A DNA stretch of 64,000 nucleotides, taken from an uncultured Clostridia bacterium. GTDB lineage: Bacteria > Bacillota > Clostridia > Oscillospirales > Acutalibacteraceae. Position numbers and translations under genes: made by a program. The notes beneath the pieces are model-generated. The model saw nothing but the letters and a program-made list of their open reading frames with translations. It made no database searches and was not told the origin of the DNA. The stretch is taken from contig CANRIZ010000004.1 in NCBI GenBank assembly GCA_947630835.1, positions 1-64,000 of the forward strand, given 5' to 3'. Positions 50,132-55,811 of this stretch are shown here, one piece after another (positions within the stretch are counted from its first letter, which is position 1; each line of letters begins with the position of its first letter).

Positions 50132-51202
50132 TTATAAAATGAGGTCGAGAACCGTGATTGCCGTAACGGCTTCCACCGCGGGAACGGCACGGGGTACTAT
50201 ACAGGGGTCGTGCCTTCCGTGAATTGTAAGCTCTTCGGTTTTAAGGGTTTTTAAATTAACGCTTGTTTGGGGGATTGATATTGAAGCGGTCGGCTTTACG
50301 GCAACCCTGAAAACTATGGGCATACCGGAGGTGACGCCGCCGAGTATTCCGCCGTGATTGTTTGTAAGCGTAACTATTTTACCGTCCTTTACCGAAAAAG
50401 CGTCGTTATTTTCGCTTCCGTATTTTTGCGAACCCTCAAAGCCCGAGCCGAATTCTATACCCTTTATTGCGGGTATTGCAAAAATATTTTTCGCTATGAC
50501 GTTTTCTATACCGTCAAACATAGGTTCGCCTATTCCCGCAGGTAACCCCGAAACCGCACATTCTATAACGCCGCCGACCGAGTCGCCCGAACTGCGGGCA
50601 ATGTCTATAACCGTTTTCATCTGTTCGCCCTTAAACCTGCTTATTACCGGGAAAAACGGGTCAAGCCGCAATTCGCCGTCAAGCGGATTTTCGCTCTCGA
50701 AGCCGTCGTCCGTAACGTCCTTAACCGAATAAATATGCGCTTTAACGTTTATTCCTTTTGCTTGGAGTATTTGCAGGCATATCGCGCCGGCAAAGCACAG
50801 AGGGGCGGTAAGTCTGCCCGAAAACTGACCGCCGCCAGCAATATCGTTATTACCCGCGTATTTAACATATGCGGCGTAATCGGAATGCGAGGGACGCGGG
50901 AGCAGTTTAAGCTCGTCGTAGTCGCGGCTTTTTGTGTTTGTGTTGTCGATTTTAACGCAAACGGGAGCGCCGCAGGTTTTACCGTCGACAAGTCCGGAAA
51001 TAATTTGAGGCGTATCCGCTTCCTTTCTCGGAGTCGCAAAACGGCTGTGCCCCGGAGCGCGCCTTGCCATAAACGCTTCGATTTTTGCAAAATCAAGCTC
51101 GATTCCGGCGGGCAGTCCGTCGATTACCGCGCCTATGGATTGCGAATGCGACTGACCGAATACGCTTACGTTAATTTTGTTGCCTTTAAGTATTGATGAC
51201 AT
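50132..51202 (-). CDS. aroC: Chorismate synthase
   Basis: Start taken as MSSILKGNKINVSVFGQSHSQSIGAVIDGLPAG; RRAPGHSRFATPRKEAD; overlaps aroA end. Confidence 0.96.
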   Translation of the reverse strand: MSSILKGNKINVSVFGQSHSQSIGAVIDGLPAGIELDFAKIEAFMARRAPGHSRFATPRKEADTPQIISGLVDGKTCGAPVCVKIDNTNTKSRDYDELKLLPRPSHSDYAAYVKYAGNNDIAGGGQFSGRLTAPLCFAGAICLQILQAKGINVKAHIYSVKDVTDDGFESENPLDGELRLDPFFPVISRFKGEQMKTVIDIARSSGDSVGGVIECAVSGLPAGIGEPMFDGIENVIAKNIFAIPAIKGIEFGSGFEGSQKYGSENNDAFSVKDGKIVTLTNNHGGILGGVTSGMPIVFRVAVKPTASISIPQTSVNLKTLKTEELTIHGRHDPCIVPRAVPAVEAVTAITVLDLIL

Positions 51203-52454
51203 CGAATACACCTCCGAGTTTTCTGTAATTTTCAAGAAAAAGGGGACTGTTGCCGTTGACGCAGTCCGCGTCGGTAACAATAATTTCGCTTTCGCATTTG
51301 AGCGCCGCCGCAGCCATTGCCATAACTATTCTGTAATCGTTAAACGACGGAATATAGCCGCCGACGGTTTTTTCGTTGCTCCAAACAATTATGCCGTCGT
51401 CCGTCTGCGCGCTTGCGCCGCCTATGGCGCATATGCAGTCGCTGAAAACGGCGGGAGCTTCTCTCATACCTATTCTTTGATGAAGGGTGCTTGAGATAAT
51501 GCTCAGTCCGCTTTTGCAGTTGTGAGCCAAAACGCAGAGCGCGGGCACAAGGTCGAAAATCTCGTTGGAGTCAAGCGGCAATCCCTTTAAATTTCCGCCC
51601 GAAACGCTTACAATACCGTCTTTTTCCCGCACGTCGGCGCCGATGCTTTTAAGAAGGGAGAGTATTTTTTCCTCGTTTTGGAAGCTTCCCGTTTTCAGCC
51701 CTTTAATCGAAGCCTTGCCCGATATTGCGCCCGCGGCGAGCAGATATGCGCTGCTGAGCCAGTCGCCTTCTGCGTCAAGCTCCTTTGGCGAAACATATTC
51801 TTGACCGCCCTTTATGTACAGGGAATTATCTTTTTCCTCTATAATCACTCCGAATTTTTTTATTATATCGACAGTCATATTTATATAGTTTTTGTAGGGG
51901 CAGGGGGAGGGAAGCCGAATAACCGAATCCCCTCGGATTATGGGCAGGGCAAATAAAAGTCCCGTAGCGTATTGCGAACTCATAGCCCCGAATTGCTTAA
52001 ATTCGCCGCTTTGAAGCTTACCCGAAATTTCAAGCGGATATTTCCACGCGGCGGTAAAGCTTATGCCGTGGCTTTCCATAGAATTTCTTAAGGGAAGCAA
52101 CGGCCTTGAAACGGGCGCGCCGGAGCTTGTGAATTCAACGTTTATTCCCAAAGCCGAGGCAACGGGGATAAGGAACCTTACCAAAAGCGAACTGTCGCCG
52201 CAGTCAAGCCGAGCCTTCCCGCATACGGGGTTTATGGGCTTTACGGTTATTTTATTGCCGTCAAGCTTAATATCCGCGCCCAGACCGTTGAGGCAGGCGG
52301 CGGTAAGCTTTATTTCGCCGCAAATTCCGTTGCAATTTATGACGGTTTCCTCACGGCAAAGGGAGCTTGCTATAAGCAGTCTTTGCAAATAAGCCTTTGA
52401 GGACGCCGCCGTAACGCAGCCGCCGAGCGCGGAGGGTTTAAACGCTATATCCAT
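51186..52454 (-). CDS. aroA: 3-phosphoshikimate 1-carboxyvinyltransferase
   Basis: EPSP synthase fold; CGDSSLLVRFLIPVAS, INMTVDIIKKFGV. Confidence 0.93.
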   Translation of the reverse strand: MDIAFKPSALGGCVTAASSKAYLQRLLIASSLCREETVINCNGICGEIKLTAACLNGLGADIKLDGNKITVKPINPVCGKARLDCGDSSLLVRFLIPVASALGINVEFTSSGAPVSRPLLPLRNSMESHGISFTAAWKYPLEISGKLQSGEFKQFGAMSSQYATGLLFALPIIRGDSVIRLPSPCPYKNYINMTVDIIKKFGVIIEEKDNSLYIKGGQEYVSPKELDAEGDWLSSAYLLAAGAISGKASIKGLKTGSFQNEEKILSLLKSIGADVREKDGIVSVSGGNLKGLPLDSNEIFDLVPALCVLAHNCKSGLSIISSTLHQRIGMREAPAVFSDCICAIGGASAQTDDGIIVWSNEKTVGGYIPSFNDYRIVMAMAAAALKCESEIIVTDADCVNGNSPLFLENYRKLGGVFDVINT

Positions 52455-52458
52455 AAAA

Positions 52459-53304
52459 TCAATCCCTGTAATCTCCGTCGATTCTTTCCTTGCACTCTCT
52501 GCCGTCCTTCAAAAGCGCCTTTAAAGTAACGGCGTCGTTGTTCTTTAAAGCGTCGGAATATTTTTTCAAGTTCTCCGTAATACAGTCTATTTCTTCAATA
52601 AGGTTGTCCCTGTTTTCCAAAAACAGCTCCGTCCACATATTTTCGTTGAGCTTTGCAACCCTTGTCAAATCCTTGTAGCTTCCCGCCGAAAAGCCCTTGT
52701 GAAGCTCGGCGTTGGGACTTTTTACATAGGCGTTTGAAACAACATGCGCAAGCTGGGAGGTGAACGCTATTATTTTATCATGTTCTTGACAGGTTGTCAT
52801 TTGAATATTTGTAAAACCGATGGATAAAAACAGCTTTTTTACGGTTTCGAGCTCTCTTATGTCAAAATCCTTTTCGGGGACTAAAATCATGGAGGCGTTG
52901 TTGAACATTGTAACCTCCGAATTTTCAAAGCCCGAAAGATGCAGTCCCGCCATAGGGTGTGCGCCGACAAAGGTAAAGCCGTGCTTTTTTGCGGTTTCCC
53001 ACATATCGTCGCAGACATATTCCTTAACGCCGCAGGTATCGAGAACTATTGCGCCTTTTTTAAACTTGTCGGCGTTTTCGATTATATATTTTTTTGTCGT
53101 TTCGGGATAAAGCCCCGTAATAATCATATCGCATTGAGATATGTTTTCGTCCGTAAGCTCGCCGTCGACAGCGCCCAGGAGCTTCGCCTTGAGCAGTACG
53201 TTATAATCGATATCGTAACCCAAAACACGGTTGTCGGTATTGTATTTTATCGCCTTTGCCAACGAGCCGCCTATAAGACCCAGACCAACTACAGCTATAA
53301 GCAT
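52459..53304 (-). CDS. tyrA: Prephenate dehydrogenase
   Basis: AVVGLGLIGGSLAKAIK, GAHPMAGLHLSGFENS, AFTSQLAHVVSNAYV. Confidence 0.93.
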   Translation of the reverse strand: MLIAVVGLGLIGGSLAKAIKYNTDNRVLGYDIDYNVLLKAKLLGAVDGELTDENISQCDMIITGLYPETTKKYIIENADKFKKGAIVLDTCGVKEYVCDDMWETAKKHGFTFVGAHPMAGLHLSGFENSEVTMFNNASMILVPEKDFDIRELETVKKLFLSIGFTNIQMTTCQEHDKIIAFTSQLAHVVSNAYVKSPNAELHKGFSAGSYKDLTRVAKLNENMWTELFLENRDNLIEEIDCITENLKKYSDALKNNDAVTLKALLKDGRECKERIDGDYRD

Positions 53305-53318
53305 ATGTTTTCCCTTCC

Positions 53319-54323
53319 TTATTTTAATGCGTTGAGAATTTTTTGCACGCCCTTTGCAACCTCGGCAAATTTATCGGGCGTAAGCGCCTGAGGGCCATCG
53401 CAAAGCGCCTGCTGCGGATTGTTGTGAACCTCTATCATTAAGCCGTCCGCGCCGCACGCCGCCGCCGCATAGGAAAGCGGCTTAACGAGCCTTGCAATTC
53501 CCGAAGCGTGACTGGGATCGACCACAACCGGAAGATGCGTTTTTTCTTTAAGTATGGGTACGGCGGAAAGGTCAAGCGTGTTTCTTGCGGCGGGCTCAAA
53601 GGTTCTTATTCCTCTTTCGCAGAGTATTACCTTCTCGTTTCCGCCCGCCATAATGTATTCTGCGCTCATAAGAAGCTCGTCTATCGTTGCGCAAAGCCCT
53701 CTCTTTAGGAAAATCGGCTTATCGAGCTTGCCAAGCTGTTTTAAAAGCTCAAAATTCTGCATGTTCCTTGCGCCGACCTGGATTATATCGACGTCCTCAA
53801 ACAAATCTATGTGCGAAGCGTCCATAATTTCGCTTACAATGGGCATACCCGTGATTTCCTTGGCTTCAATCAAAAGCTTTAAACCGTCCGAACGCATACC
53901 CTGAAAGGCGTAGGGCGAGGTTCTCGGCTTAAACGCTCCGCCCCTTAAAACATTTGCGCCGGCTTCTTTTACGGATTTTGCGATTTCGATAATCTGCTCT
54001 TCGCTTTCAACCGAGCAAGGACCCGCGAAGAACTGAAAGTTTCCTGCGCCCAGTTTTACCGAACCGCCAAGGTCGATTACCGTGTCGTTCGGGTGAAATT
54101 TCCTGTTTGCCTGCTTGTACGGCTCGGAAATTCTCCTTACACCCTCAACAATCTCAAGCCCCTCGATTAAGTCGGCGTCAATTCTGCTCGTATCGCCTAC
54201 CAAGCCCCAAACGGTGGTATATTCGCCTACGGACTTGTGTATTTCAACGTTTTGGTTTTCGAGCCATTGCCTTAAAATTTCAACCTTTTGGCTGTCGGCT
54301 TCGTTTTTTAAAATTACTATCAT
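53319..54323 (-). CDS. aroF: 3-deoxy-7-phosphoheptulonate synthase (AroF/AroA-beta type with N-terminal extension)
   Basis: Start taken as MIVILKNEADSQK; FFAGPCSVESEEQI, GGAFKPRTSPYAFQG, VDPSHASG. Confidence 0.95.
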   Translation of the reverse strand: MIVILKNEADSQKVEILRQWLENQNVEIHKSVGEYTTVWGLVGDTSRIDADLIEGLEIVEGVRRISEPYKQANRKFHPNDTVIDLGGSVKLGAGNFQFFAGPCSVESEEQIIEIAKSVKEAGANVLRGGAFKPRTSPYAFQGMRSDGLKLLIEAKEITGMPIVSEIMDASHIDLFEDVDIIQVGARNMQNFELLKQLGKLDKPIFLKRGLCATIDELLMSAEYIMAGGNEKVILCERGIRTFEPAARNTLDLSAVPILKEKTHLPVVVDPSHASGIARLVKPLSYAAAACGADGLMIEVHNNPQQALCDGPQALTPDKFAEVAKGVQKILNALK

Positions 54324-54338
54324 TTTATCATATCCTTT

Positions 54339-54372
54339 AAAAAAATAACCCGCAGTGAATTTCAACTGCGGG
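54339..54372 (-). terminator. Attenuator terminator ahead of aroF
   Basis: Minus strand CCCGCAGT-TGAAATTC-ACTGCGGG followed by TTATTTTTTT. Confidence 0.85.
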
Positions 54373-54422
54373 AATAAACTTACTTTGTTTTTAAAGCGAG
54401 CTTCAAACAGCGAAATTCATTA

Positions 54423-54488
54423 TTACCTTACCGAGCATACGATAAAGCGGTAATAGTAATATCCGGCTGTGATAATGCGCTTTGACAT
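54423..54488 (-). CDS. Leader peptide MSKRIITAGYYYYRFIVCSVR (Tyr-rich), candidate ribosome-mediated attenuator
   Basis: GGTGAGGAG SD upstream of ATG; codons TAT TAC TAT TAC CGC TTT; followed by alternative pairings and intrinsic terminator; directly precedes DAHP synthase. Confidence 0.8.
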   Translation of the reverse strand: MSKRIITAGYYYYRFIVCSVR

Positions 54489-54516
54489 AATATTCTCCTC
54501 ACCTTATATTGTTGAT

Positions 54517-54545
54517 ATATTAGCACCATTAAAAACAAATGTCAA
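54517..54545 (-). promoter_or_regulatory. Sigma-A promoter of the leader/aroF operon
   Basis: Minus strand TTGACA (54540-54545), 17-bp spacer, TAATAT (54517-54522). Confidence 0.8.
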
Positions 54546-54550
54546 CCTTT

Positions 54551-55405
54551 TTATAGCGAAAAAAGCGATATTATACCCGCAGAAAATATCGAAATAAGGT
54601 ACAGCAGGGCGACTATTTTCAGGTTTTCTTTTATATTGCGGTTTTCCTTGAAAAGTACTATCAGTCCCGCCCCCGCCGCCGTGCAAAGCCCCGCCGTGAC
54701 CGAGGCAAAGCTCAACGCGCCTTTAAGGTAAAGCTCCGTAAGCAGTATGGAAGCCGCGCAGTTCGGTATTAAGCCTATAAGCCCGGCTATTAAGGGCTGG
54801 AATGCGGAATTTTGCAGCAAAATTTTTGACAGGGAGTCGATTCCCACAAGCTCTGCAAAGAAATTGAGCGCAAATACTATGGCGATTAGGAACAGCATAA
54901 TTTTAACCGTATGCTTAATTGCGGGCTTTAAAATACCGCCGTGTTCGTGACAGCCGCAGCTTCGGCAATGGTCCTCTATATGCTTCTCGGGCGAGGGATG
55001 CTTTTTTGCAAAAAAATCAACGGCATAGCCGAAAACAAGGGCTATTATTACTTTTACCGCAAGCAGTTTGAATATCTCCGCCGCCTGCCCGGGGTGACCC
55101 AGAATAATAATCAGGGCTTCGTCGCTTGTAGAGAGAAAAACCGCCATAAGCGTACCGAGCGTAATAACTCCGCTTGAAAAGAGGTTAGCGCAGAAAACGG
55201 AAAAACCGCATTGCGGAATACAACCGAGTATTGCGCCCGCGGCAGGTCCCGCCTTGCCGGAGGAAGCAATTTTTTTATTGATTTTTTCGTTGGTATGGTG
55301 TTCGACCGCCTCCAAAAGCAAAAAAGCCAAAAACAAAAAGGGGAGTATATTAAGGCAGTCCGTCAACGTGTCCTTAATTATTTCAAGCAATAAATCAACC
55401 GTCAT
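54551..55405 (-). CDS. Putative multi-TM heavy-metal exporter / permease (ArsP_2-like)
   Basis: GCIPQCGFSVFCANLFSSGVITLGTLMAVFLSTSDEA, GLIPNCAAS; His/Cys-rich loop KHPSPEKHIEDHCRSCGCHEHGG. Confidence 0.75.
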   Translation of the reverse strand: MTVDLLLEIIKDTLTDCLNILPFLFLAFLLLEAVEHHTNEKINKKIASSGKAGPAAGAILGCIPQCGFSVFCANLFSSGVITLGTLMAVFLSTSDEALIIILGHPGQAAEIFKLLAVKVIIALVFGYAVDFFAKKHPSPEKHIEDHCRSCGCHEHGGILKPAIKHTVKIMLFLIAIVFALNFFAELVGIDSLSKILLQNSAFQPLIAGLIGLIPNCAASILLTELYLKGALSFASVTAGLCTAAGAGLIVLFKENRNIKENLKIVALLYLISIFSAGIISLFSL

Positions 55406-55811
55406 GGCGTTCCTTTCCCATACAGCTTTCGCATATACCGTAAAGCATAGTCTTTTCGCCGTCTACAATAAAATTGTGCTCTTTAAAAATATGCTCGGAA
55501 AGCTCGTCTAAGAAGCCGCATTCCGCATGAGCGAGCTTGCCGCATACCGTGCATTTCAGATGGTAATGGTTACGGCATTTTTCGTCGCTTTGCGCAAGCT
55601 GGTAGCAGGCGCTTGTACTTTCGTCAAACTTGAATTTCCGCACCGTCGTTTCCTCATAAAGCTTTTCGAGCCGGCGGTAAACCGTAGTCCTGCCCACGGA
55701 AATACCCTTGGAAATCAAAATGTTGTATACCTCGTCCGCCGTCAAATGCCTGTTTTTGTTTTCTTCAAGGCAATTCAAAATTTCCCTGCTCTGTTTGGTG
55801 GAGTATCCCAT
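55395..55811 (-). CDS. Fur family transcriptional regulator
   Basis: TADEVYNILISKGISVGRTTVYRRLEKL; HYHLKCTVCGKLAHAEC, GICESCMG. Confidence 0.92.
   Translation of the reverse strand: MGYSTKQSREILNCLEENKNRHLTADEVYNILISKGISVGRTTVYRRLEKLYEETTVRKFKFDESTSACYQLAQSDEKCRNHYHLKCTVCGKLAHAECGFLDELSEHIFKEHNFIVDGEKTMLYGICESCMGKERHDG

Follow-up and report, generated by a model that had tools for sequence, protein, structure and literature searches.

A tyrosine-codon leader peptide and terminator as a putative attenuator of an aroF-tyrA-aroA-aroC operon, and related leaders ahead of DAHP synthase genes in Clostridia

In most of the Clostridia loci sampled in this study, a short open reading frame rich in Tyr and Phe codons and a subsequent terminator are located ahead of the gene for DAHP synthase, and chance is excluded as the source of this arrangement. 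The copy in the window, by which we mean the whole stretch of 64,000 nucleotides of an uncultured Clostridia bacterium that was analysed, precedes an aroF-tyrA-aroA-aroC operon and, as judged from its sequence, is very probably a transcription attenuator through which the ribosome senses charged tRNA-Tyr.

Results

The leader resides on the minus strand between the gene of an ArsP_2-type permease, which ends at 54551, and the ATG of DAHP synthase at 54323. The features of the locus are as follows.

54517-54545, minus strand: sigma-70-type promoter TTGACA-17-TAATAT (-35 TTGACA at 54545-54540, spacer of 17 nt, -10 TAATAT at 54522-54517), 10 of 12 consensus positions, TG preceding the -10
54495-54503, minus strand: Shine-Dalgarno sequence GGTGAGGAG of the leader ORF, 6 nt 5' of the ATG
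54423-54488, minus strand: leader peptide ORF MSKRIITAGYYYYRFIVCSVR, 21 codons plus TAA; homologues of the leader in 26 further genomes of the genus
54450-54461, minus strand: Tyr codons TAT TAC TAT TAC, predicted sensing (stalling) site; Tyr/Phe run conserved
54449-54470, minus strand: segment 1, ACAGC (54470-54466) and TATTACC (54455-54449), pairs with segment 2 (from folding and from the comparison of native with swapped pairing)
54407-54427, minus strand: segment 2, GGTAATA, which overlaps the stop codon, followed by TGAATTTCGCTGT; partner of either segment 1 or segment 3
54356-54368, minus strand: segment 3, CAGTTGAAATTCA, part of the 5' arm of the terminator plus its loop; antiterminator partner of segment 2
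54339-54372, minus strand: intrinsic terminator (3:4), stem-loop CCCGCAGT-TGAAATTC-ACTGCGGG at 54372-54349 with the 3' arm as segment 4, and T tract at 54348-54339
53319-54323, minus strand: DAHP synthase type Ibeta (aroF), first gene controlled (PRK08673, 473 bits)
52459-53304, minus strand: prephenate dehydrogenase (tyrA)
51186-52454, minus strand: EPSP synthase (aroA)
50132-51202, minus strand: chorismate synthase (aroC), likely start MSSILKG

The initial annotation of this DNA had proposed the promoter, the Shine-Dalgarno sequence, the ORF, the Tyr codons and the terminator in this place and on this strand, and all of them, like every other statement that it made about the sequence, were found to be correct base for base; its name for the operon likewise agrees with the four enzymes encoded. 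The locus thereby combines a promoter, a short ORF with a Shine-Dalgarno sequence and a run of codons for the amino acid that the pathway yields, and an intrinsic terminator between the leader ORF and the first gene. The four Tyr codons are directly followed by CGC TTT, and the terminator stem, which comprises 8 pairs and is followed by TTATTTTTTT up to position 54339, folds with -14.2 kcal/mol. Taken on the window sequence alone, the terminator is weak evidence, as one was found where 0.6 are expected in shuffled sequences, and the case rests on the relatives. Upstream on the same strand, positions 54551-55811 hold the genes of a Fur-family regulator and of the ArsP_2-type permease (NCBIfam arsenic efflux protein), which overlap by about 10 bases and apparently form a separate, metal-related unit.

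Within the leader, the competing pairings that had been described are present. Taken in isolation, the RNA spanning segments 2 and 3 folds as an antiterminator of TGAATTTCGCTG (54419-54408) with CAGTTGAAATTCA (54368-54356) at -18.0 kcal/mol, compared to -14.2 kcal/mol for the terminator, and TATTACC (54455-54449) is complementary to GGTAATA (54427-54421). In addition, ACAGC (54470-54466), located just 5' of the Tyr run, pairs with GCTGT of segment 2; this part, which is absent from the initial annotation, is the better conserved half of the 1:2 pairing. The corresponding segment 1 motif of the relatives, (A/G)CAGCTGAA, pairs with TTTCGCTGT and encodes the recurrent residues AAEY or TAEY that directly precede the run. 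As the Tyr codons are located within segment 1 and the stop codon (54425-54423) within segment 2 (54427-54407), the leader has the geometry that attenuation requires. Equilibrium folding of the RNA that a stalled ribosome would leave free still yields the terminator, so that switching must depend on co-transcriptional timing, a general requirement of attenuators of this kind. Equilibrium folding being uninformative on the switch, the native pairing was compared with swapped pairing instead (see below).

Conservation was surveyed in 40 genomes of the same genus, 28 of which possess a DAHP synthase Ibeta of the window type. In 27 of the 28 operons, this gene follows a terminator and a leader that carries a Tyr/Phe run, the sole exception being genome G021, where the leader has been lost. 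In G021 (C1:269300-270400), a trpS-like gene is located directly before the DAHP synthase gene, with only a terminator between them. In the alignment of the 27 sequences, 87.5% of the cells of the 1:2 and 3:4 helices are paired, compared to 82.2% in shuffles, and 33 cells are changed on both sides, compared to 10.2 in shuffles, the terminator helix being among those so changed. The 2:3 pairing, with 99.1% of the cells paired, is nearly invariant in the genus, and its support thus comes mainly from the wider sets of loci.

Beyond the genus, a locus was scored as positive if it contained an ORF led by a Shine-Dalgarno sequence with at least four Tyr or Phe among seven residues and a terminator 3' of this ORF. 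Among the regions upstream of 106 related DAHP synthase genes, 76 contain both; the corresponding number is 3 for their reverse complements, and three rounds of dinucleotide shuffling gave 0, 1 and 0. Among the other long ORFs of the same loci, 3 of 275 passed, one of which lies ahead of an apparent pheA gene and is likely to be a true leader. Named species with both leader and terminator include Angelakisella massiliensis and Yanshouia hominis, and in Emergencia sp. and Sporobacter termitidis the run is present while one element was missed by the script. Since loci chosen by similarity are biased, genomes were also drawn evenly across the class Clostridia, and the best match from each of the first 100 distinct genomes was analysed. 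Leader and terminator occur in 61 of these 100 loci and in 28 of 43 families, and in 0 of 100 reverse complements. Metagenomic assemblies make up a large part of those used in this work. The positive loci number 37 in the upper and 24 in the lower half of the ranking by match, and as the 100 loci represent the closer DAHP synthases of the sample, the true class-wide rate is probably below 61%. Relatives devoid of the Tyr run or of the terminator, which the initial annotation had named as evidence against its proposal, were thus sought in both the genus and the class, and their frequency does not refute it.

If the pairings matter, the segments of a locus should fit each other better than they fit those of other loci. 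We therefore compared the pairing of each locus's own segments with that of segments swapped among loci, by 10,000 permutations per test in two data sets. Own segments paired through 2:3 with a mean of -13.4 kcal/mol, versus -10.9 kcal/mol for permuted ones (z -9.2), in the first set, and with -13.3 versus -9.3 kcal/mol (z -13.0) in the class set; the values for 1:2 were -16.7 versus -13.1 kcal/mol (z -11.2) and -14.7 versus -11.4 kcal/mol (z -9.7), respectively. The z-scores are not probabilities and overstate the number of independent events, as the genomes are related and the samples not independent. In each of the four tests the native value was reached by 0 of 10,000 permutations. Some antiterminators, among them those of loci L054, L058 and L078, have no obvious sequence in common with that of the window, and yet they pair. 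As native pairing is far stronger than swapped pairing, the 1:2 / 2:3 / 3:4 switch is taken to be conserved under a changing sequence; the attenuation logic that had been proposed from the single locus is thus backed by compensating changes in relatives. The elements, their conservation and the mutually exclusive pairings retained through sequence change are, accordingly, matters of observation.

Discussion

Based on these features, the following sequence of events can be proposed. RNA polymerase would initiate at the promoter (54545-54517), with a ribosome translating the leader ORF behind it. Where charged tRNA-Tyr is ample, the ribosome would reach the stop codon and mask segment 2, the 3:4 terminator would form, and transcription would stop before aroF. 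If charged tRNA-Tyr is short, the ribosome would stall on the Tyr codons and mask segment 1, which would allow 2:3 to form in place of the terminator, and aroF-tyrA-aroA-aroC would be transcribed. Without translation, 1:2 would pair, leading to termination by default. Stalling, the response to tyrosine and the relative timing of polymerase and ribosome are here inferred from the established mechanism. The assignment to tyrosine is consistent with the genes controlled, which lead to Tyr, while pheA of the window genome (G000) is located elsewhere under a Phe/Tyr leader of its own.

A chance juxtaposition of an ORF rich in aromatic residues with a terminator that belongs elsewhere, such as to the upstream permease gene, might be suspected from the near-random terminator count in the window, but the conservation and the reverse-complement, shuffle, other-ORF and swapped-pairing controls refute it, and we regard it as scarcely conceivable. 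Hardly more credible is control by a T-box, a TRAP site or a metabolite riboswitch, with the short ORF being incidental. It draws on the T-boxes which, in the window genome, precede each of tyrS, pheS and trpE. Against it, neither a T-box nor any other Rfam family reaches its threshold in the whole window, in agreement with the initial annotation, which had seen no T-box at the locus; the T-box model (RF00230) is unmatched ahead of the window aroF while it matches 13 times elsewhere in the genome, and a T-box motif occurs in none of the 61 leader-bearing loci of the class sample. None of the known Rfam amino-acid leaders reaches its gathering score in the window or in the relatives. At a permissive E-value, the best Rfam match on the leader was manA-II; its score of 25.8 bits, compared to a gathering cut-off of 100, is not credible and is attributed to chance. 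Very improbable, too, is a different trigger, such as a general slowdown of translation, stalling by antibiotics, or a peptide acting in trans, as reported for peTrpL of Sinorhizobium. Such roles are on record for short conserved leader ORFs elsewhere (PMC7298713). The conserved part of the present leaders is, however, a Tyr/Phe run beside Tyr/Phe genes and no fixed peptide sequence, and where flanking residues such as AAEY are conserved, they fall on RNA segment 1, which pairs with segment 2.

A sensor of charged tRNA-Tyr thus being the preferred reading, it has to be considered whether Phe may contribute to the signal. Most relatives have mixed YFYFYF runs, the window leader itself has one Phe codon two codons past the Tyr run, and for the aroR leader of Corynebacterium glutamicum, with its codons Phe-Tyr-Phe, a review describes a response to Phe but none to Tyr (PMC11802643). 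A dual response of the window leader to Tyr and Phe, or one that is chiefly to Phe as in the reported case of aroR, is nevertheless rather unlikely. Its core is YYYY, as in the closest relatives, G036 and G030, and in G000 and G036 pheA is located elsewhere, in G000 under a leader with Phe codons. By comparison, 24 members of the genus have pheA on the same strand, 4.6-5.3 kb further downstream, and 22 of their leaders combine Tyr with several Phe codons, typically as YFYFYF. The YYYY run of G000 and G036, followed by a single later Phe codon, together with their unlinked pheA thus favours Tyr as the signal in the window operon; the later Phe codon may contribute, but Tyr should be dominant. 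That a Tyr-only leader indicates an operon without pheA is only a suggestion, as it holds for G000 and G036 and fails for G015, which has a nearly Tyr-only leader despite a linked pheA, so that leader composition tracks operon content imperfectly. The Tyr-only leader with unlinked pheA probably represents one evolutionary event.

Ribosome-mediated attenuation is a classical mechanism, and the E. coli attenuators pheL and trpL have the same 1:2 / 2:3 / 3:4 pairing logic and codon-specific stalling. They serve other amino acids and other genes, and the Rfam families that exist for such leaders do not match the window. The idea of a leader ahead of aroF is known as well. The aroR leader upstream of aroF in C. 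glutamicum (Neshat et al. 2014, as cited in PMC11802643) is similarly a Tyr/Phe leader before a DAHP synthase operon in which ribosome stalling relieves termination, but it belongs to an Actinobacterium and is reportedly Phe- rather than Tyr-responsive; the Clostridia family has longer runs, and the window copy is Tyr-only in its core. Attenuation has also been proposed for the uORFC-13-1 motif upstream of aroF in Acholeplasma (PMC8632094), which likewise comprises a uORF with promoter, ribosome-binding site and terminator. The motif is restricted to 24 sequences from Acholeplasma and environmental samples and has by definition at least one Phe codon, and a Tyr run is not mentioned for it. Two uORF candidates with Phe and Tyr codons near shikimate genes, drawn from five genomes including Clostridium novyi (PMC6429828, Fig. 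6b), could overlap with the Clostridia leaders.

The initial annotation had contrasted leader peptides, as a proteobacterial trait, with the T-boxes or TRAP usual for aromatic operons of Firmicutes. Clostridia are indeed usually credited with other switches, but the contrast is too sharp, and leader peptides cannot be considered foreign to Firmicutes: leader-peptide attenuation replaces the T-box in the His leader of hisS*/hisZ in bacilli (PMC2965389) and in the Leu-rich leader of the Staphylococcus aureus ilv operon (PMC5794164), and Acholeplasma provides the candidates mentioned above (PMC8632094). These His and Leu leaders differ from the present ones in amino acid and in bacterial class. 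In the literature searched, which comprised few subscription papers, no description was found of a Clostridia-wide family of Tyr/Phe leaders or of its division of labour with T-boxes.

Such a division is indicated within the window genome, where both Tyr/Phe biosynthesis operons have leader peptides. The second leader, MFKKRYYFIFSNVME, has its own promoter and terminator (G000:C16, positions 101-283, ORF from 159) and precedes pheA-aroB-aroE/K-aroQ-aroA-DAHP synthase Ialpha, the names of the middle genes having been assigned by eye. Among the 39 loci of the class sample devoid of leader plus terminator, 6 have a T-box-like motif, compared to 0 of the 61 with both (p 0.003; counted by a short pattern, not by a covariance model), which suggests that T-box and leader peptide replace one another at DAHP synthase loci. 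No T-box was found at the Rfam threshold in 20 leaderless loci of relatives, the class sample alone showing the T-box-like motif. It might thus be hypothesized, with about equal weight for and against, that in Clostridia the first committed aromatic step is most often under the RNA control of leader-peptide attenuation rather than of the T-box, that in one and the same cell tyrS and pheS sense uncharged tRNA by T-boxes while the corresponding biosynthetic operons use the ribosome to sense charged tRNA, and that the Tyr/Phe make-up of the leader follows the terminal-branch genes in the operon.

The observation at a single locus has thus been extended to a class-wide regulatory family that is absent from Rfam (61/100 loci and 28/43 families sampled), and the window genome would clearly illustrate how two RNA mechanisms that sense tRNA can coexist for one set of amino acids. 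The Tyr/Phe content of short ORFs may aid annotation by hinting at the product of an operon, and the natural series YYYY, YYYF and YFYFYF lends itself to testing how leader codons tune specificity. Members of the genus with a pheA-first or Ialpha-first aromatic operon have Tyr/Phe leaders of their own, e.g. MFFNCYFYYYFISAID and MKNNIFSFYFYYFKKGC. Five pheA-first operons of the genus (L172, L173, L174, L176 and L177) have differing leaders, MFFNCYFYYYFISAID, MFFYRYYYFFISAID and MFNKSYYYFYYFAKGCPSSERN, and other terminators, while in two genomes, G009 and G016, the Ialpha DAHP synthase gene is first in the operon behind Phe/Tyr leaders that begin with MKNNIFSFYFYYFKKGC and MKNNIFFYYFYYSKKGC. At a further locus (L070, about 1780-1970), the leader MNGRLNLNGTKAYYFYFSQSFYFSAGYF precedes a gene resembling chorismate mutase/pheA, which itself is located upstream of the DAHP synthase gene and has the same orientation.
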